A DNA stretch of 22,439 nucleotides, from positions 1-22,439 of the forward strand of contig KV919327.1 in the NCBI GenBank assembly GCA_002049455.2, written 5' to 3'. A model generated the notes under the pieces. The model searched no databases. It was not told where the DNA came from and was given only the letters and a program-made list of their open reading frames with translations. The DNA comes from Porphyra umbilicalis. Taxonomy: Eukaryota > Rhodophyta > Bangiophyceae > Bangiales > Bangiaceae. Positions 2,091-22,439 of this stretch are shown here, in pieces. Made by a program: the position numbers and the translations under genes. Positions within the stretch are counted from its first letter, which is position 1; each line of letters opens with the position of its first letter.

Positions 2091-4239
2091 AGTGTGAGCG
2101 TTGTGTACAACCCGGACGCGTCGCCGAGGATTTTGTTGGAGGACCCATGCGGTGCTCACCCAGCCGTGTGTGAAGCGACACCGGGCCGGCCACCGTCGGC
2201 GCCGCCACGAGTCGACCTCCCCCCGCGCCGGCATCCATCCTTTGCACCTCTCCTTTCCTGGGTGCCGCCACCACAGCACCACACTTGCCCCCGGCCCCGT
2301 GATCCCATGGCGGCGAGGCCCCCCCCCTGCCGCCCGCCCCCCCTCCCCCCGGCCCGCTTGAATTCCCCCTCACCGCCTTCCCCGACCACCCCGTCGCACG
2401 CGCGTTGCGCGACGATGGCCTCTCCCGCCGGTGGTTGCTGCCCGTCGGTGGGCTTTCCGTGACTGCCGCCGGCGGCAACGGCGGGGGCGGCATGGGGCCG
2501 GTCCCTCCACGACCAGCGGCAACGGCCATGGTCTCCCGTGCGGCGCTGACGCAGCCGGGCTTGGCGCAGCGGGTGGGATGGACGTCTGACGTGGAGGCGG
2601 ACGACGGGCGCGTCGTCCAGCAGGTCCATCTGATGGTGCGTTGTGGAGGGGCAGTGGGAGCCGGGGCAGCGACAGAGCGGCGCAGAGGGAGGCTTGGGGG
2701 GGGGTGGCGGGTTGAGGGGACGCCCATCTTTTGTCGCGGCTGCACCATAAGCGACGGCGCCGACGGCGCTGGGGTAAGCCGTGCCGTGCAAGACCCCGAT
2801 CATCGAGCTGACGTGATGGCCGGTCACTGCCCGCCGCTTTCGTTTTTTTGCCTTTCATGAACTGACCCATCCTTACCCCCGCCTGACCACCCACTCCGCG
2901 TTCCCCCCGTTCGCCCCTTGGACAGCTCGTCCCCTACGCCACCGTCAATGGCATCACGCTCGGCACGTTTGTCGCACACCCCCACATGCCCCCCTCGCGC
3001 GCCACACCGGGCACCGCACCGGCCGCCGTGGCCGCGCCCGCCTTTGGCCGCTTTGTCCTCGACGAGGCCGCCGGGGAGCTCGTCGCCCTCCGCCCCGAGC
3101 GGCGGGGCTCCGGCCTCTTTTGCCTCGCCATCACGGGCGCGGGGGTGGGGCACGGCGGGTCGGCGGGCGCCGCCCACCGGTGTATGGTGCACCTCGACGG
3201 CGCCGGCGCGACGGGCGTGCCAGACGGACCCATCACCGTCCAGCGGCGCACCGCCCTGTGCTGCGGTGCGGGGTGGGCGGCCGTCGCCGCCAGCGTGCCC
3301 ACCGTCGGCCTGGTGCCCGCCGCCGCCACTGCCGCGGCGCCGACGCCACCGTGGACTAGCCCCGCCGACTTTCACGGCTTTGACACGGCCGTGCGGCGGC
3401 TGCTCGGCGGCGTGGCCGCCCGCCGGGGGGACCCCACCGCCGCAGCCGTCGCCGTGCCCCCGCCGCTGGCCGGCCAATGTGGCCACGGTGGCCCCCGGCG
3501 GTCAGGCGGCGGGTGCTTGTGGCCGCCCCTGTCGGCGGCGGCGGCGGTGCTCAAGCCCGCCGCCCTGCACCGTCTACCCCCCGCCGTCGGCGCTGGGATG
3601 GAAGTCGCCCTCGTGCAAGCCGCCCTCGACGTGGTCGTGGAGCGGCCGTGGTGGTCCGCCGCCGCCGTCGCCGGGGAAGAGGCAGACGCGCCTGCCGCCC
3701 GCGCCGCCGCGGCGGCGGCAGACGCGGCGGCGGCAACCGCCGCGGCCGTCGTCGCCGCGGCCGACGCGACGACGCAAGCGTGGGCGGCGGCCGAAGCAGC
3801 GGCCGTCGTGGCCGCGGCGGCGGGTGCCGCGACGCGTCCCCCGTGGGCGGCGCCCCTTTACCCCACCGTCGGCTCCCCCATATCACCCCCCCGCCTGGCG
3901 CCGCGACCGGCGGGTCACTCGGCCCTCTTGGCCGACGCGTCGGCGTGCCGGCCATCGCCGGCGCTGCCCCCGCGGGGGCGCGTCAAGCGGCGGCCGCACG
4001 GCGCCTCGCCCGGGGCCGCGTCTGACGCGGGCGCCGCCACCGCGGGCGCCGCCCCCGCCGCCGCCGACGGGCGGCCGAGCAGCCGCGTCGCGCGCAACCG
4101 GGCGGCGGCGGCGCGGGCCAATGCGGTGCGCGCCGCCGCGCGGGCGGCGCGGCGGGCGGCGCGAGCGGCGGCGGCGGGCACGTCGGCGGTGGGGGAGCGC
4201 CGGCGGTGGGGGGGCGCGCTGGTCGGGGGGTGGTTGTGA
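2091..4239 (+). CDS. Unrecognised Ala/Pro-rich protein, one intron
   Basis: I do not recognise the family. The most secure parts are 2357-2773, beginning LEFPLTAFPDHPVARAL, and 2926-4239, beginning LVPYATVNGITLGTFV. They are joined in phase 0 across an intron at 2774-2925. The segment 2091-2312 is in another frame and would join the next by a -1 step in the C tracts around 2313-2350. Codons end mostly in G or C. The middle carries alternating hydrophobic and small residues; the last 150 residues are almost pure Ala with Arg. An alternative end exists: a -1 step at the C7 tract near 3891-3897 would stop the protein at 4025. No transmembrane segment or catalytic motif is evident. The start is uncertain (see 1781-1816). 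Confidence 0.55.
2774..2925 (+). other. Intron in the unrecognised gene
   Basis: The donor is GTAAGC immediately after a GGG codon. The acceptor is a pyrimidine-rich stretch ending ccccttggacag. Removing 152 bases joins two open frames at a codon boundary (phase 0), giving DGADGAG followed by LVPYATV. The frame changes exactly as the intron requires, which is good evidence for it. Confidence 0.8.
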
Positions 4240-6827: not shown

Positions 6828-7332
6828 ATGGCGCACCTCGTCGGCCCGCCCGACGGCCCGTCGGTTGCGGGCGTGGTGGGCCCCCTCGGCTTGGGCGGGG
6901 GCGGCGGCGGCGGCGGGCCCGCCGCGCCGCGCCCCGCCTCGTCTGCCGACGTGGAGGCGGCGGCGGCGGCGGCGGCGGCCGCCGCCGCCGCCGACGCGGC
7001 CGACGCGGACGAGGCGGTGGTTGTGGCCGCCGCCGTGGCTGCCGAAGCGGCCGCCGCCGCCGCGGCGGCCGGCGGTGCCGACGGCGGCGCGGCGCCAGGC
7101 GGGGCGGTGGCCGCCGACGCGGCCGCCGCCGCATCGCCGGGCGCCCCAGTGGCGGCCGACGGCGGTGGTGGCGGCGGCGGCGGCGACGGGCGGGCCGCCG
7201 ACGCGGCGGGCGTGGGGGCGGGCGCGGCGGGGGCGCTCGGCTTTTCCCCGCCCCCGTTTGGGGGGGGGCCCCCTGCCGCGACGGACGCGGGCGGGGACGG
7301 CACTGCCGTCAACGGGGGCGGCGTCGGCAGTG

Positions 7333-7370
<38 letters not shown>

Positions 7371-7523
7371 CTCCCCCTGTCGGCCGACGTGGCGGCGGCG
7401 GTCGACGCGGCGGCGGCGGCGGCCGCCGTCGACATGGCCGCCGCCGCAGACGCGTTTGCCGACGGCGTCGCCGGACGCGTGGCCGCCCCCCCCCCCGACG
7501 CTGACGCTGACGCCGACGCCAAC

Positions 7524-7558
<35 letters not shown>

Positions 7559-9583
7559 CGACGCGGCAACGACCGCCGCCGCCGTCGCCGCGGCAGCGGT
7601 GGTGGCCAATGGCAGCGACGGCGGGGGCGGCGGCGGCGGCGGCGGCGGCGCGGCGGGCACCCCCCCGCCATGGTGGCGTCGGCAGCGTCGGGGGCGGGTG
7701 GGCGGGGCCACCCCCCCCCCCTATCCCCAAACTCGACCCCGCCGGCACGCCCGGCGGCGCCGGCGAGGAGCCCCCCGGCGATTGGGTGCCGCCGCGGGTC
7801 ATCGCCACCCACTTTACGGCCGTGTCGCGCGACACGGCGCGGCACCGCATGGCGGCCGTGTGCCTCCACTGCGACGCGGTCGTGCGGGGGTCCACGTCCG
7901 CGACGAGCAACTGGATTCAACACTTGAAGCGGCGGCACCCGCCCGCACACGCCGCGTTTGTGGCGGGCACGCCGCGGGGGAAGCGCGCGCGCCTCAGCGG
8001 GGGGGGCGGGGGGGGGGGGGGGGGGGGGGGGGCGCCCGCGCGGGCGCCGCCGCCGCTGCCGCCGCCGGCGCGGGCAACATGGACATGGACGCGGACGGGC
8101 CGCCGCCGCCGGCCGTGGCGGCGGCGGCGGGCGGCGGCGGCGGCGGCGGCGTCGGCGGCGGCGGTGGCGGCGCGGCGGGGGCGGCGGGGGCGCCCATCCT
8201 GGCGCCGCACCCTCCCCCCCCCCGCCCCCCCCCCCCCCCCCGTATCCGTCGACGCGGTCCCCCCACCGTCTACGTGCACGCGCCCGACGCGGCGGCGGTG
8301 GCGGGGGCGGGGGCGACCGCCGCCGCCGCCGCGGGGGCGGCGGGGGCGGGCGCCCTCGCGGCCGGCCCCGCCGCCGCGGCGGCCGCGTCGGCGGGCACCC
8401 CCGCGGCGCTCGAGCGGCTGCCCGTCCCCGGCCTGCGGGTGTGGGTGCGCCGCGACGGTGGGGGGGGGGGGCGGGGGGGGGGGGGACGGCACCCCGGGCG
8501 CCGCCGCGGGCATCACAGCCGCCATTGCCGCGGCGGCGGCGGCGGGCGTGGGGGGGGTCGCCGTCGGACCCGCCCGCGCCGCGGCGGTCGCGGCCGCCGC
8601 GCGCGACGCGGGGCTGCCGGCGGTGGTGGTGTTGCCAGAGGCGGCGGGGAAGCGGGGGGGGGAGGGTGGGGGTGGGGGGGTGGGGGGGGGGCGCCGCCCC
8701 GCCGCCGCCATTGCCCGCCGTGGCGGCGGCGCCCGACCCGTGGGAGGCGCCGGCCGAGGTCGCCCGCTGGGCGGGCGCCGACGTTGTGCGCATCGGCGCC
8801 GACGTGGCGGCGGCGACGGCGGCGGCCGCGTCGGTCGCCGTCGACCGGGGGCACCGGTACGTGGATGGGGAGGCGGCGGCGGCGGCGGGCGTCGGCGCCG
8901 ACCTCCTCGCCGCCCTCCGCGCGCTGCCGCCGCCGCCGCCGCCGCCGCCGGCCGCCGCCGCACCGGCGGCGGCGGGTGCCGACGCGTCGGCGGCCGCCGC
9001 GGCGGCGGCGGCGGCGGCGGCGGCAGCGGCAGCGGCGTCAGCGTCGGCACCTCCAATGACGACGGTCGTCCTCCCCGCCCACGGGCCGACCATCACCGCC
9101 GCCGCCGCGGTGGCGGCGGGCCTCCCCACCCTCCGGTTGGCGGTGGCGGTCGGGCGCCCCCCGCCCCCCCCCCCCCGCGCCGGCGCCCGCCACGGAAGCG
9201 GACGTGACGGCGTCGGACGTGGCCGCCCTCCCCGCCGCGTGCCCGTGGTTGTCCCTCTCCTCTGGGGGGTCGTCGTCGGCGCCGCCGCCGTGGCCGCCGC
9301 CGCCGCCGCCGCCGCGGCGGTCGGCGTGGCGGGCCTCGACGCGCCCGCCGCGACGGTCGCCGCCGCGGCGGTTGCGTGGGCGCGCGCCCACCCGGCCGAC
9401 GGGCGGGGGGCCGTCGTTGCGTGGCTGCCCCCGCCCCCGCCGGCGCCGGCGACCGCGCTCGGCGGCGCCGCGTGTGTGGCGGCGGATGCGGCGCTCGAGG
9501 GCGGCGCCGAGGGGCTCCTCGTTGTTGGTGGCGGCAGCGGCGGCGGTGGGGGTGGCGCCAGTGGCGCCGGTGGGGGCGGTGGG

Positions 9584-9614
<31 letters not shown>

Positions 9615-10182
9615 TGGCGGCCATCCTCGCAGCGACCGCCGCGGCGGCCGCCGCCGACGGCGTCGTGACGCGGCTGTCGTGGGGCGGGTCCCCCGCCGCC
9701 GGCTGCCTCGTCGGCATTGCGCCCGCCGCCGCCGCGGCGGTGGCGGCGGAGCGCCTCCGCGCCACGGGGCTCGCCGTTGCCGACGTGGCCGCCGACGAGG
9801 CGCTGCGCGGGGTGCTCGGCGCGGGGGGTGGGGGCTTGCCGCCCGCGCCGGCGGGGACGGCGGCGGCGGTGGCGGCCGCTGCCGCCGCTGCCGCCGCGCC
9901 GCCGTCGCTCGGCGGCGGCGGGCGGGCGGCGGGGCCCCCCCCCCGCGCCTGTGGCGGGTGTGGGTCGGCCCCTCGGGCGTCGGCGGCGCCGTGGCGGCCG
10001 CGTCGGCGGGGGGCGGGGGGGGGGGCTCGTCGGCGTCTCGTACCGGGCGGCGGTGGGGGGGGGGTGGGCGCTCTTTGCGACGGGGGGGGGGGGGGGGGGG
10101 GGGGGGAGCCGGCCCGCTGGGGGGGGGGGGGGTCGAGCTCACCGGCACCCCGGCGGTGCGCGCGTTGTGGGGGCTGCGGTAG
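6828..10182 (+). CDS. BED zinc finger fused to a degenerate threonine dehydratase (IlvA-like)
   Basis: Order: ATG at 6828 (MAHLVGPPDGPSVAG); Ala/Gly/Asp tract to about 7680; BED finger 7790-7941; low complexity to about 8250; then an IlvA-like region. Dehydratase landmarks: LERLPVPGLRVWVRRDG (8410-8458, strand before the PLP-lysine loop), AGLPAVVVLPEAA (8608-8647), WAGADVVRIGAD (8766-8801). First ACT-like repeat about 9505-9830: GCLVGIAP, then GLAVADVAADEALR. Second repeat about 9947-10179: LWRVWVGPSG, GVSYRAAVGGGWALFA, ending TGTPAVRALWGLR, which lines up with the natural IlvA C-terminus. Catalytic features are gone: no lysine codon in any forward frame from 8459 to 8648; PARAA where Gly-Asn-His-Ala is expected; AHGPT where the glycine-rich phosphate loop belongs. 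The reading frame must step -1 about 17 times, always at G or C tracts. Inference: a pseudoenzyme with amino-acid-binding repeats. Two separate proteins cannot be excluded; ATGs at 8078 (MDMDADG) could start the second. Confidence 0.65.
7790..7941 (+). other. BED-type zinc finger domain
   Basis: The segment reads VIATHFTAVSRDTARHRM, then AVCLHCDAVVRG, then NWIQHLKRRHP. The metal ligands are Cys at 7861 and 7870 and His at 7921 and 7936, spaced C-x2-C-x16-H-x4-H as in BED fingers, with the aromatic HFT motif upstream. BED fingers bind DNA and occur in transposases and in host regulators derived from them. A basic tail, GKRARL, follows at about 7978-7995 and could be a nuclear localisation signal. 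Confidence 0.85.
9505..10179 (+). other. Two ACT-like regulatory repeats of threonine dehydratase type
   Basis: In IlvA, two ACT-like repeats follow the catalytic domain and bind isoleucine and valine. Here repeat one has the pattern G-V-V-T-R-L near 9660-9676, C-L-V-G-I-A-P near 9704-9723 and a G-L-A-V-A-D-V-A-A-D-E segment near 9768-9800. Repeat two starts LWRVWVGPSG and contains a Y-R segment, GVSYRAAVGGG, in the position of the IlvA F-H-Y-R motif. Frames within repeat two change at G tracts 10008-10025, 10082-10106 and 10119-10132. The repeats look better kept than the catalytic part. Confidence 0.55.
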
Positions 10183-12935: not shown

Positions 12936-15082
<2,147 letters not shown>

Positions 15083-16339: not shown

Positions 16340-19300
16340 CTACCACTGGTTGGGGACGTGCGTGTCCGGGTCCACCAACACGTACACCGCGTCCAGCGGG
16401 GATAGCAGCGTGAACGGCTCGGGGTTGGTGTATACGTACGGCAGACGGTTGCTGCGGGTGCTCGGCTGCTGCTGGTAGTAGATGACATTGCCGGCGGTCG
16501 GGCACACATAGGTGTGCGGGGGCAACTCCCCTGGACCGCCCACCTCGTCGTCGCCGACCTCGTCACCGGCGTAGTCATCCCACTCATCCATCGGCAGCCG
16601 CTCGTCCGCTGCCTCGAGGACGTCGTCAAAGCTACCACCGCGCGGCGCGGCGCCCGAGCTGAGGCCGTTATCCCAATCGAGTTCCGCCTGCATCTCGTCC
16701 ATGTGCTGGTCCAGGGACCACGAGCCAGCCGCGCCCCGCCGGTGTCGCCGGCTGCACGCCCCGACGCTGGCGAGGCGGTGCGCTGCCGCCGCTTCACCGG
16801 CCGACAATAGCGGGTCCGTCTCTCTGGTCGCGGCAGCGGCAGCATCGGCACGGAGAGTCGGCGAGAGCGTCGCCCAGCTGCTACGGCGGCTGTGGCCGAG
16901 GCCCACGCTGTCACCAACGCTAAAGCTCCCGCTCCCACTCCCGCCGCGCAAGCTCCCATTGCTGCTGCAGTGCTCCATTACAGAACCGACAGGGCCGTGC
17001 CAACTGACGCGCACCCGAAAGACAGCGTCGCCGGCCCGGTAGAGACCAATCGGCAGCGCACCGAGCGGCAACAGTGCTTGATACAGGTCCCGGTACACGC
17101 GGTGCAGCGGGCGGCCGCCGCCGCCGACGCCGCTAGCGTTGCTGCCATCATCGGTGGCCTCCCAGTCCGACTCGTCGCCCGGCCACAGCCAGGAGCGCGG
17201 AATCGGGAGCGCACGCACCCAACAGCGCGTCGACCGCGCACGCGTGCCGACGCCGACGCCAAAGACAGTGCGGACGGCCGCCATTAGGCCAGGCGTCTGA
17301 AACTCCCGAACCGCCAGCGCCAGCAGCGCCGACGACAAGAGCACTTCACCCGACGCGTAGCGCTGACGCTGCTGCGTCTCGGCGTGCGCCGACACTGTGA
17401 GGGGGTCGTCGCCGAGGACCATCGACCCGCCGGCGTAGCCGCCGCCACCGGGACCGCCGCTGTACGGCGGACCGAGGCTGTCAAAGCGGAGGTTGCGCTG
17501 GGAGCCGCCCCAGGTCGAAGACGCCCCCCCGTACAGGGCACTGTTGAAGAGGCTGGCAGACGAGAGGCCCCCCGCCAGGTTCCGGTACGCCTCGGAGTCA
17601 CTGGCTCCCCCGGGCGCCGGAGTACGTGACGCATAAGCGTAGCCACCCCCACCCCCGAACGGGCCGGGCGAAGACGGGACGCCTGCGGATGTGCTCATAC
17701 CGGGCACGCTATACCCGCTGTACGTGCGGGGTAGGCCAAGGAAGGATGCCGCCGGGGAGGGCATCCCCGATGGCAGGCGCACCCACGACGCCACGGCCGG
17801 CGTGCGGGTCATCATGGCGGGCTCCGTATGCACGCCGAGCGTCGTGCCTTGGCGACGGGGGTTGGCCGGTGCCCGCAGCAACGCCATAGATGCCTCCGCG
17901 TCCAGCATGCAACACACAAACACCGAGCTGTTGGTCGTCAGCAGGTGGTCGAGCGTCATGACAGTGAAGAGCGCACGGCTGTCCGACGTGTGCTGCCGCG
18001 GCCGCGACTCGCACGCAAGAATGAGGATGGCCTTGGCCGAGCCGTACTGCGCCCGCCGGAGCGTCGGGATGGCCAACGAGTTGCCGCGCACGAGGAAGAG
18101 CGGGGACTTGTCAAACTTACGGAGGTTGGCCTCGTCGGCGGCCGTAAACGCGGCGCTAACCGCGACCACGGGCGTGCGCGGCGCCCGCCCGCCATCGCGG
18201 GGCTGCCAGATGCGCTCGAGGAAGACACGCAGGTTGCCGACGGCCATGGAACCGAGCAAACACACGACGATGTGGGAGCGCAGCCGAACGGGCAGCGGCC
18301 GCGCGCCGTACAAGATGAGGTTGCGCCCGCCGGCAGCGGCAAACGCCGCTGCCGATAGCACTGCCTTGGAGGATCCGCGACGGGCGCCGCCGGTGCTCGG
18401 CCAGCCGCCTGCGCTCGACGCAAACGAAGAGCGCGAGAGGCGGCGAGTCGCCGTCCGCCGCTCTCTGCCATGGCTCGCGCGGCGCTCCGCGCCGTCAGGC
18501 TCAGTCGGAAAGTCGGGCGCGTCGTGGCTGCCCATGGAGCGTGTACGAGAGTCATGCCTGCTGGTCGACCGGTCGACGAATGGGGGACTGCCGCTCGCAG
18601 GCGAATTGCCATCCTGCCCCTCCTTGGCATCCACGGGGCGAGCCACAGGGCCCGCCGCAGCCACTGCAGCGTGGCCCGCGCCAAAGGCGGCCGTCGAGGC
18701 GGCACTGCCGACCACCTCTAGGGTGTCATCACTGCCAGCAGACTGGCTATCGGGGCGGCGCTTCCACTGGGAGGGGCCTTGCCAACGCTCCTCCCGCAGC
18801 CGTGAAAGTTCCTCCTTGTCCATACTCACACTGCCGCTGCGGATGGCGAGTTGTGACGGTAGAGGCAATGACAGCTCCAGCGCCGGTGCGGTGGGCGCAG
18901 GCGGTGTCGGCACTTGCAAGTCTAGCGCGCGGACGGGCGCGACGGGCACCAACGGTAACGCCAATGGCACAGGCAACGACGACGATGCGGCTAGCGCCAC
19001 AGAGGCCAAAGGCGGCTCGGCTGCCGACGTGGCAGCGGATCGCCCCAGCGTGGGCACTTGCACGTCGGTGTCAGCCAGCGGTGGTGGCGGCAACGCCGCC
19101 ACCGCTGGGCTCGGCGTGGAGGCAGACGACTTTGTGCTGCTGTTGCTGCTCATCGGCCCGCTGTTCTCCTCCAGCCGCGCGACATCTGCTCCGCTGTGGC
19201 TGCTACCGCCACTGTTTCGCCGTAGCAGCCCGGAGTCGCCGTGTCGGACCGCTGCGGCCGCCGCGTGGGGTAGGGCCGACAAAGCGCGCGGCAGCGATAC

Positions 19301-22300
19301 AATCTCCTCCGCCACGTACTCCATGCTCATCCCGCCAAAGCCGTCATCGTCGTCCAAGTCCACGGCAACGTCTTGGAAGTCGATGTCATGATCACCGTTG
19401 CCCGTCGCAATCATCGGATCAGCCGCCGCCGCCGCGCCCCATGCGCTGACACCCGCCACGACGCCATGGACAGAGCCCGCTGCCGGCCCGCCGCCAGCGT
19501 GCGTCGACTGCTCGAGAACGCTGCCGTTACTCGTCGTACTCTCATCCTCTGTTGGGTATGGCACAGCCGACTCGTGGAGGGACCTGGACGCCGACTCGTG
19601 GAGGGACCTGGACGCCGACTCAAACGACTCCGCCGCCGCCGCAGGCTTGTGGTAGGTAATTGCAATCGCCGTGTCGCCTCGTCGGAAGACGGTTGACGGA
19701 CCAACCGTCGCCCATCGAGAAGCGGGTGCTCCTGGTCGCTGTCGATGCCGCACGGCAAGTAGCACGAGCCCGAGGTCGTACAGGGCCACCGCCACGTCGG
19801 CCATGCACCATCCGGTGAGACTGTCCGGGACCGACGTGAAGCAGAAACCACACTCGGAGCCCAGTCCGTACTCGTACATCCACGACGGGTTGTCAGGGGA
19901 GATGTTGGGGTCAGCCGGTTGGCCGCCCTGCTGACACAGGTTGCACAGCAGCGTGGAGAGCCCGTTGCAAAACACGTTCTCCGCGAGCAGCCCCATCTCC
20001 ACCTCCTGCATGCACACCGCCTCAGACAGCTGGGCAGAGCTGGGGGTGGCCTCGGCAAATGCCGAACCCAGCGGCGCCGTGTCGTCAAAGCCGTCGGGCA
20101 GGTTGATGGAGTCAGAGGAGCTCGGCGGCGCGTCCACAGACGAGTCGGATGTCCACTCCCGGGATGACATGGGTGACCACCGGGACGCGGAAGAGTTGGA
20201 CGACCCCACCGAAGATGGAGAAGATGGGGTGGACGACGGCAAGGAGGAGAGCGGTGTGGAGAGGTCGCTGCTCAAACCAGGTGTTGACGAGCTGCCGTCA
20301 CCCATGTCGCCGCCGCCTCCGCCGCCGACACTGCCATCGCCACCGTCGTCTCCGCCAGTGCCACTCTGCACTGATGCCCGCGTGGACGCCGTGGACCATG
20401 GAAGCGACGCAGTCGGCGCGCGGTCCCCACCACCGCCCGACGACCGCTCGGCCGTTAGCACCGACAGTCTGTCAGCGGAAGAGGTTGCCGTCGGAGGCGC
20501 ACCGTCCCCTCCCACCCCGCGCGCCGCTCTGGCCCGACGGCGAGGGCGAGTGGGCGGCCCGACGCGGACGGCCGCCCGCCGCGGGCGGTACCCTTTCCGA
20601 CGGGCCCCCCTCCCCGAAGACGGTACCGTGGTCGGCGAGAGCGCGAACGAGATTTGCAGCATCGAGTCCCGAAGCGCCACCATGGCATACACGGGCACCG
20701 CCGGCGCAACGGCCCGGATGGTCAACACCCGTTTGAGCGTCGCCGAATCCTCCCCGACCGTGTCCTCGCTGTGCTGGTTGCACAACACAAACACCGATGC
20801 CGCGTCACTGACGCGTGCGCGGTCGAGCGCGTCCGAGGAGGTGGCGTCGCCCTCTAGGTAGACCAGCTTGTACCGCACATGGTCAGGGACGGCGGCAGAC
20901 TGGACAAAACCGTTCCACAACTCTGCCGCGCTCTGGTCGCCCTCCGTGCCAAACGGAGCGGTGTGGAGGACGACCAGCATTGGCTGGTCGTCGGAGGGTA
21001 TCGCGTACAACTCCACCACAAACTGGACGAAGAACTCCCATTTGACATTGCCGCATAGGATGACGTGCCGGTTGCAACTTTTGGTGAACGTCCCCGTGCC
21101 ACGGCGGCCAGCGGCAAGGGCGGACAGGACGGAGGAGACCAGCTGAGCAACCAAAAAGGCCCCGGATACGATGACCGCCAGCACCCAGATGCGGCCCATG
21201 AGCGAGTACGGTACAAAGTCCCCATACCTGCATGACATGGACGAGACATGCAACACACACGAGCAAGCCGGAAAGGGACAACGTGCAACACAGCAAGGAG
21301 CAACCATCCGTACATTTGTCGCGCGGAGAACACACTGGGAGTGTCAGAACATGACGCCGGACGTGATGAACAACACACTCGCATGAGCCTCGGGATGCTT
21401 GCAACGGCAAATACAAAAGCCCACGATGACGTCCCCGCTTCTGAACCCCGTGCGTGAGCACTGCATGCAAGCCCCGTCCCCCACACACCAAAAAAATACA
21501 ACGCGCGCGGTGTGGCGTACCCAACTGTCGTAATGGTTACGCAGCTCATGTACAGAGCATTGACCCAAGTCATCTCAAAAGACGTTGCCGCGAGCGCCTC
21601 TGACGGGTCGCCAAGCAGCTCGGCCATCTGCAAGCCGCACGCAAAGATGAAGACAAAGACGAGGAACTGCAGCACGAGCCGCAAGACACTGCGGGCAACA
21701 GCAGACAGCTGGTCGCTCAGCGCCAGCCCCTCCTGCTCCAACTGCCGGTAGCGGATGAGCATGATGTACGCTTGCAGGAAGCCAAAGTGGCACCACGAGA
21801 CGGACGCCGCGAGGCTCACCGCCGACAGACACTCGACGGCCGCATCAATCGACACAATGGCGCCATACGGCGCCGGGGACGACGCAATGACCAGGCCCAG
21901 CCGCGCAACGATAACCGCGGCCATGACCCGGTCAATGACCAGCCCGACCGCCGTCCGCCGCTGCAGGTGCGAACACACCACATAGTTGACGCACGCCCCC
22001 AAGCACGCCGACACGCGCACGAGCGTTAGCAGCCGCGCGAGGCGGTAGAGCGTCGGCGACGCGGGGATGCCGACGAGCACAAACACATTGACGAGGTCGT
22101 CGGCGGTGTGGCCGCCGCCGACGAGCGACTCGTGGCGGCCGAGGAGGACGCTGGAGAGGGACACGGCCGACCGCTGCTTGTCGTTGGTCACCCCGCCGTC
22201 GCCGGGAGCGCCGCTGCCACCACCGCCGCCGCCGCCGCCGCGGGGCAGGCGGGCGCCAAGGGCGAGCGAGCGGCCAATGGCCCACGCGGCCAGGGCGGCC

Positions 22301-22377
22301 CACAGCAGGCCGGCAGCGGCGGCCAGGGTCGTCACACCCGTAGCGCCCGCCCAGGTGGGCAGGCCCGCCTTGAGCAT
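16340..22377 (-). CDS. slo: BK/Slo-type potassium channel alpha subunit
   Basis: A tetrameric membrane K+ channel with cytosolic RCK domains. Exon 1 22377-21521, exon 2 21227-16340; 1914 residues, no frame break. An in-frame TGA ten codons upstream supports the ATG at 22377. Hydrophobic segments: S0 about 14-40, further segments about 108-135, 147-166, 173-193, S4 198-215, S5 231-250. Pore: TITTVGYGDF at 281-290; S6 298-325; LLGDPSEA before the pore matches the Slo turret. RCK1 about 338-485 (HVILCGNV; YLEGDA). Slo-specific segment about 688-840 (GLSTLLCNLC; SLTGWCMADVAV). RCK2 about 1270-1400 (HIVVCLLGSM). The tail has LPLGALPIGLYRA, then YVYTNPEPFTLLSPLDAVYV near the C-terminus, as in Slo1. 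Three Ser/Gly-rich linkers (about 490-685, 845-1250, 1405-1560) explain the length over the usual 1200 or so. S4 has Arg only at 209 and 211, and the calcium-bowl position has only GDD. Confidence 0.93.
19569..19616. repeat. 24-bp tandem duplication in the channel linker
   Basis: Two exact copies of a 24-base unit beginning gactcgtggagggacctgg. On the coding strand this duplicates the eight-residue unit SLHESASR in the Ser-rich linker between the Slo-specific segment and RCK2. The frame is kept. The identity of the copies suggests a recent duplication. Confidence 0.95.
21228..21520 (-). other. Intron of the channel gene, within the selectivity filter
   Basis: The donor GTACGC follows ACAGTTGG; the acceptor is catgcag before GTATGGGGAC. 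Removing 293 bases in phase 2 rebuilds the codon GGG and reads TTVGYGDF, the canonical potassium selectivity filter. This makes both splice sites nearly certain. Read through, the donor side would give TTVGYATP, which no potassium channel uses. Confidence 0.96.
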
Positions 22378-22439
22378 CGCACGGGTGGCGCCGCGATACC
22401 CTCACGCATCGCGTCCGGCAGGCGGCGGGGGGGGGGGGG
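22378..22439. other. Upstream flank of the channel gene, window edge
   Basis: These 62 bases lie before the chosen start codon. They contain the in-frame TGA at 22406-22408 on the minus strand and end in a run of G at the window boundary, possibly an assembly break. An upstream exon joined by splicing cannot be excluded. Confidence 0.5.

Follow-up and report, generated by a model that had tools for sequence, protein, structure and literature searches.

A BED zinc finger joined to an IlvA-like scaffold without a recognisable PLP site: candidate DNA-bound regulators in the red alga Porphyra umbilicalis

Contig KV919327.1 of the red alga Porphyra umbilicalis was analysed over its full length of 22,439 nucleotides (the window, which corresponds to contig C567 in genome searches covering the 83.8 Mb assembly of 665 contigs). 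On its forward strand it carries a gene in which a BED zinc finger precedes a region resembling the threonine deaminase IlvA (EC 4.3.1.19). The gene has an intact paralogue on another contig, C102. Both are read here as members of a small bangialean red algal family of DNA-bound regulators built on a dead enzyme, i.e., a BED finger placed before an IlvA scaffold that has been stripped of its pyridoxal phosphate (PLP) site. The probability of this reading is put at roughly 0.55.

When ten frame changes are allowed, the gene runs from an ATG at 6828 to a stop at 10182 and specifies 1054 residues, the translation omitting residues within some homopolymer runs. Its first part (6828..7664, frame 3, from the first ATG) encodes a low-complexity region rich in Ala and Gly, with guanine-plus-cytosine (GC) contents of 0.92/0.77/0.90 at the three codon positions. 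The BED finger follows in frame 1 and, together with an upstream aromatic motif (WVPPRVIATHF ... CLHC ... HLKRRH), occupies 7783..7941; the zf-BED match found in the organism's own genome covers 7810-7941. A complete C-x2-C-x16-H-x4-H finger had been claimed at 7861-7938 by the original prediction, an earlier reading of the bare sequence, and its ligands are all present there, with a match to Pfam zf-BED (PF02892) at an E-value of 7.5e-8 (32.7 bits, cut-off 20.6). Downstream, an AHAAF extension and a basic KRAR stretch (7942..8007) are, by alignment, common to the C102 protein, and the basic stretch is a possible nuclear signal. Besides the finger, no Pfam match was obtained with the full-length window and C102 proteins, except for a zf-WIZ match below cut-off on the finger residues of the window protein.

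The part after the finger follows the order of IlvA. The strand preceding the PLP-lysine loop (LRVWVRRDG, against ILVKRED in IlvA) lies at 8409..8459 in frame 3; it was recognised by eye from motif and order and falls outside the matched stretch described below. The position expected for the Ser-x-Lys loop is taken by a poly-G stretch without lysine codon (8460..8485). Two PALP-like segments come next. The first (8485..8649, frame 1, its matched part on IlvA columns 95-117) has PARAA (8569-8583) in place of the Asn loop and reaches a score attained by none of 100 shuffles. The second (8735..8929, frame 2) corresponds to approximately IlvA columns 118-180 and lands on 124-159, again with 0/100 shuffles as high, and is part of a 104-column match. 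A further PALP-like strand with a degenerate glycine-rich phosphate loop (VVLPAHGPT, with AHGPT at 9077-9091) occupies 9056..9154 in frame 2; its start lies inside the joined match, and the piece taken alone is not significant and out of register. The putative end of the PALP-like part (9189..9611, frames 3 then 2) was placed by order, its frame-2 piece not being significant by itself, since 65 of 100 shuffles equal its score. Piece G of the window is likewise not significant (8 of 100 shuffles as high). ACT-like repeat 1 (9617..9820, frame 2) lands on IlvA columns 368-421. ACT-like repeat 2 and the C-terminus (9949..10182, frames 1, 3 and 1, assigned by order and by eye) end in TGTPAVRALWGLR and the stop, with TGTPAVRAL from 10141, so that all three motifs named earlier (PARAA, AHGPT and TGTPAVRAL) were located.

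In local mode, the trimmed window sequence scored 34.3 over 104 columns (IlvA 95-201) against an IlvA profile of 31 sequences (32 matches, with one duplicate removed and one partial sequence retained), and none of 200 shuffles scored as high, the best reaching 24.2. A global-mode alignment of the window alone with IlvA gave no signal. The proposed IlvA order thus holds beyond chance for the PALP half of the window gene, while its ACT part is not significant alone. The idea that the ACT repeats of this copy are its better kept part was not sustained: the score of the first repeat was reached by 13 of 100 shuffles, although none matched score and register together, and the second is out of register, with 18 of 100 shuffles scoring as high.

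A zf-BED search of the genome identified at least four places, two of which are the window gene and the C102 paralogue, while the other two resemble, by eye, hAT-like transposases. The C102 paralogue is one uninterrupted open reading frame of 1059 amino acids from its ATG. It encodes a BED finger (27.8 bits with Pfam zf-BED, cut-off 20.6), the motif KKSRGRPP, which we take to be AT-hook-like and which is not seen in the window copy, and the IlvA-like part. Over the finger and its flanks, the window and C102 proteins are 48% identical across 89 amino acids (E 3e-21). The C102 protein was used as a database query; of the 7990 candidates scored, four were relatives at E<=0.01, with identities of 98, 79, 78, and 77%. 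Each of these four has a precomputed BED domain; the 98% relative comes from a JGI source, and the 77% relative corresponds to a named Pyropia vietnamensis gene model. In the own genome, the IlvA-like part of C102 matched nothing but C102 itself. Because C102 is intact and has four relatives, the fusion of a BED finger to an IlvA-derived scaffold is considered real and conserved, which backs the earlier view of a single protein combining both and lacking a recognisable PLP site. About 440 bases past the C102 stop, on the opposite strand, a bZIP-like basic region followed by a leucine zipper is visible by eye (KKRGRKRK ... NRQSAKQSRLRRKAQ; L025:3-1715, G000:C102).

Conservation within this family was expressed as percent identity by region between the C102 and Pyropia proteins, a protein-level measure and not a ratio of non-synonymous to synonymous substitution rates (dN/dS). 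The finger region is 91% identical and the AT-hook region 94%; the values are 90% from the strand to the lysine loop, 88% for the core, 78% for the end of the PALP part, and 89 and 86% for ACT1 and ACT2, respectively. Lower values were obtained for the hinge (25%), two inserts (52 and 31%), the N-terminus (61%) and the linker before the core (73%); the insert 471-512 is 81% identical. In general, the finger, the pseudo-enzyme and the ACT-like parts look better kept than most linkers, and the dead domains look to be under constraint.

The relationship of the C102 family to IlvA was assessed by profile-profile comparison with hhalign, the filter of which kept three of the five C102-family rows. 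The family scored 67.6 against the IlvA profile over 404 colinear columns, from IlvA 100 to 516, corresponding to P 5.8e-8 as a single comparison. The best of 105 controls (45 column and 60 block permutations) scored 29.6 and the reversed C102 family 16.0, while the unrelated profiles IlvY and IlvD gave 21.1 and 14.6, respectively. When segments were tested separately, the core, the PALP end and ACT2 were each matched by 0/100 permutations; ACT1 lands on the second IlvA repeat, with 1/100 permutations as good. These profile comparisons show that the C102 family carries an IlvA-homologous scaffold, with a PALP core and ACT-like repeats in colinear order.

The same scores bear on the idea of a domesticated hAT transposase, in which a transposon finger would be followed by low-complexity sequence resembling IlvA by chance. 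BED-finger proteins include hAT transposases, of which such fingers are typical, as well as their domesticated forms; the two other BED places in the genome have that appearance, and Ala-rich sequence is prone to false alignment. However, 67.6 stands against at most 29.6 in controls that keep composition, and Pfam detects no hAT catalytic or dimerisation domain in either the window or the C102 protein. On these two grounds, both chance similarity and an ordinary hAT transposase were rejected, and this origin of the whole protein is considered extremely improbable; the finger itself may be of transposon origin.

Inside a significantly aligned segment of the C102 family, the phosphate loop GGGGL of IlvA is replaced by ARVAC in four of the five C102-family proteins and by ARVSC in the fifth. 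Since the window protein has AHGPT at this place, the alignments show the loop to be lost in both paralogues. The Asn loop, which is PARAA in the window protein, is altered in C102 too, as judged by eye. No catalytic lysine is found, in a stretch that aligns poorly, and it may be lost as well. Its likely counterpart in C102, identified by eye, is a Gln (KCDGALPGGRTQFRAL) that is invariant in all five proteins, in a segment that is not significantly aligned, and MAFFT puts the IlvA lysine loop elsewhere in C102. As PLP enzymes of this class require both the phosphate loop and the lysine, the loss of the former and the failure to find the latter make catalysis by the C102 and window proteins very unlikely. 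It could be argued that C102-type proteins have kept enzymatic activity by means of an atypical active site, for instance with another lysine, as all five family members share several invariant lysines (e.g., K448, K514, and K563) and the alignment of the lysine loop is uncertain. This is very improbable in view of the change from GGGGL to ARVAC in a significantly aligned segment, the Asn loop that is changed as judged by eye and the window region devoid of a Lys codon.

Several results weaken or weigh against the case for an IlvA-derived, PLP-stripped scaffold. The claim that the forward strand has no AAA or AAG triplet in 8459-8648 was confirmed, but only two such triplets occur in all of 8001-10182; because composition predicts none, a missing Lys codon in 190 bases is weak evidence alone, and less weight is given to it than before. 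As many as 97/100 permutations did as well as the N-terminal segment of C102, where the lysine loop is presumed to lie. With a narrow enteric IlvA profile, the score drops to 31.6 for C102 (P 0.0036) and to 18.8 for the window. The C102 protein has no match to Pfam PALP or Thr_dehydrat_C, to NCBIfam or to PDB sequences, and the window protein no significant PALP or Thr_dehydrat_C match in Pfam and NCBIfam, its sole NCBIfam row being TIGR01127 (IlvA) at E 4.3, in the correct register. A home-made IlvA profile in HMMER gave no match to either protein with default filters; with filters off, C102 reached 6.3 bits at best and the window totals stayed below zero. The original prediction had counted the lack of a significant PALP or Thr_dehydrat_C match as evidence against itself. 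Single-sequence HMMER indeed gives this outcome, which is overturned only by profile-profile comparison. Two AlphaFold2 predictions (mean predicted local distance difference test, pLDDT, of 30.3 and 36.7) gave no structural support and were not used. Across the IlvA part, the window does not score above shuffles when compared with the C102 family (5 and 8 of 100 as high). As neither this comparison nor the ACT-like part is significant, what supports homology of the window copy is the finger, the shared layout and the PALP half. Lastly, two protein searches with the window gene returned no relatives, a result that says little about absence, as these searches missed even the C102 paralogue.

The window copy might accordingly be a decaying duplicate of a C102-type gene, with function confined to the C102 family. 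Ten frame changes within 3.3 kb, an extreme Ala/Gly expansion (34.6% Ala and 19% Gly), the lack of an orthologue in the two protein searches and an IlvA part too divergent to match the C102 family itself would agree with such a pseudogene. However, nine of the ten frame changes fall on G or C runs of at least 7 bases and the tenth on GGGGGG (9264-9269), and G/C homopolymer runs are frequent sites of assembly error. The chosen frames contain no internal stop in 1054 codons, where 3.4 would be expected under a first-order model (500 simulations, 3.2% of which gave zero), while 4 and 2 stops occur in the two shifted frames. Restricted to the region downstream of the finger, this test is weak (1.8 expected, zero in 15.4% of simulations). 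Moreover, codon position 2 has the lowest GC content in all 11 segments of the gene (two ties counted), as it has in C102 and in the gene for methionine aminopeptidase 2 described below; the frames had been picked by eye prior to this count. The zinc ligands of the window copy are intact. Based on the positions of the frame changes, the absence of stops and the codon-position GC, assembly error is more likely than decay, and a pseudogene is regarded as a less likely reading that keeps an appreciable probability. Local GC in the window rises to 88.5%, and two 25-base G runs (8008-8032 and 10082-10106) lie within the reading path. If they are real, their length would be unstable, and frame switching in vivo could occur.

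A separate, active IlvA had been suggested as something to look for. No biosynthetic IlvA is detectable in this genome, the assembly of which may be incomplete: Thr_dehydrat_C has no match, TIGR01124 and TIGR01127 remain below cut-off, and IlvA from E. coli (NP_418220.1) reaches 39 bits at best. A citramalate synthase, by contrast, scores above the curated cut-off (478.9 vs 450 bits; G000:C58:39712-41232(-), L151, L153). A match to its first exon lies 301 bases upstream (41534-41668) in a different frame, pointing to an intron and against bacterial contamination; the gene is apparently nuclear. Dihydroxy-acid dehydratase is present as well. With IlvA undetected and citramalate synthase present, 2-oxobutyrate for isoleucine is probably derived from citramalate, i.e., isoleucine synthesis starts from pyruvate, which would leave the old enzyme free for reuse. 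A catabolic-type fold-II dehydratase remains on G000:C2 (511-aa open frame) and could also supply 2-oxobutyrate.

This C2 protein, in which GSFKFRG, SSGNHG, and VGSGSML are kept, was considered as IlvA and rejected as being of catabolic type. It belongs to the same PALP superfamily as the C102 family but has no BED finger or ACT repeats that could be seen, and when compared as a single sequence it scores 19.5 with the C102 family, which is no match. Several other PALP places were likewise rejected as IlvA: C30 is read as cysteine synthase, C41, C83, and C121 as serine-dehydratase-like repeats, and C148, by eye, as a desulfhydrase/deaminase type. The searches further returned C460 and two matches at 13 bits, on C94 and C480. 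The serine/threonine-dehydratase-like stretch occurs in three similar copies (G000:C41:103301-103879, C83:156502-157434, and C121:133653-134261; L005, L003, L007). The C41 and C83 copies have an in-frame TGA in the matched part, and perhaps a dehydratase is carried here in a repeat.

Elsewhere on the contig, the reverse strand carries a Slo/BK-like calcium-activated potassium channel (16340-22401), with a 1667-aa frame that holds the RCK and BK alpha domains and a second, overlapping frame that holds the pore domain. A Peptidase_M24 protein (13250-15082, forward strand, E 2.9e-29) is, by eye, methionine aminopeptidase 2. Between approximately 11170 and 13190, on the reverse strand, a putative calcineurin-like phosphoesterase, recognised by eye, is split over frames; its Pfam match is below threshold (E 0.0088). 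On the forward strand, a 450-codon open frame (2887-4236) with a basic Ala/Arg-rich stretch has no Pfam match at E 0.01. An inverted repeat with 30-base arms, no gap and 97% complementarity (227-286) is located in the first 2 kb, which are of lower GC.

How the family would work can be proposed in outline, DNA binding, nuclear site, ligand and regulation all being predicted from sequence. The BED finger, with the AT-hook-like motif in the C102 paralogue, would bind DNA, and the pseudo-PALP core would provide oligomerisation. In the mode that seems likelier, the ACT-like repeats would take up a small amino acid as ligand (probably Ile or Val, or a compound related to them), and its binding would alter DNA binding or the choice of partner. 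A sensing regulator is only slightly more likely than one in which the scaffold has no sensing role. In the latter case the protein would be a DNA-binding regulator or a chromatin protein, and its dead IlvA part would serve oligomerisation or protein contacts only, a reading with a substantial though minority share of the probability. The lost phosphate loop and the lysine that was not found fit with this, and so does the PALP core, with a degree of conservation equal to that of the ACT parts (88% vs 86-89%), as a scaffold role would explain. On the other hand, the ACT repeats are conserved between this species and Pyropia, and aromatic residues are seen by eye near the positions of E. coli Tyr369 and Tyr465 in both paralogues. 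The latter argument weighs little, since MAFFT aligns Tyr369 with a gap in the C102 protein. As for the history of the family, isoleucine synthesis would have shifted to the citramalate route, rendering the enzyme dispensable and its sensor domains free for reuse. The complete scenario, in which citramalate synthase replaced threonine deaminase in bangialean algae and the discarded, feedback-regulated enzyme became BED-finger (and AT-hook) transcription regulators that have retained, in their ACT-like repeats, the sensing of a branched-chain amino acid, is tentative, its odds being well below even.

Compared to known systems, these proteins resemble E. coli IlvA in having a PALP core followed by ACT-like repeats, the match for the C102 family spanning 404 columns. 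They are unlike it in the added BED finger, the lost Gly-rich phosphate loop, the Asn loop changed by eye, the catalytic lysine not found and the lack of any score above a curated family cut-off (PALP, Thr_dehydrat_C, TIGR01124/TIGR01127). With BED-finger and hAT proteins they share a complete finger above the Pfam cut-off, but here an IlvA-like scaffold, and no hAT or other known domain, follows the finger. The closest working analogue, by analogy only, is found in MocR/GabR, which two papers describe as bacterial regulators with a winged helix fused to an aminotransferase fold (PMC5734734; PMC6917764). In both cases a DNA-binding domain is fused to a PLP-enzyme scaffold, used as a sensor in MocR/GabR. 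Whereas MocR, as described there, is bacterial and combines a winged helix with a PLP-binding aspartate-aminotransferase fold, the present proteins are eukaryotic, have a BED finger and are of fold type II with a stripped PLP site; no winged-helix or PLP-binding aminotransferase domain was matched by Pfam in the window or the C102 protein. In the titles and opening lines of abstracts of the open-licence literature, no description was found of the BED-IlvA layout or of a red-algal swap of threonine deaminase for citramalate synthase, nor anything judged relevant on threonine deaminase/dehydratase in Porphyra or other red algae or on citramalate synthase in red algae.

The use of a metabolic-enzyme fold as a DNA-binding sensor has a bacterial precedent in MocR. 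If the present reading is true, the red algal family would be a eukaryotic case that derives from a feedback-regulated amino-acid enzyme, with the pathway step that displaced it identifiable in the same genome. It would also show how a regulator can originate, the pathway being rerouted first and the spare allosteric scaffold then being fused to a DNA-binding domain. For the organisms themselves, which include seaweeds cultivated for food, the family is a candidate amino-acid sensor.

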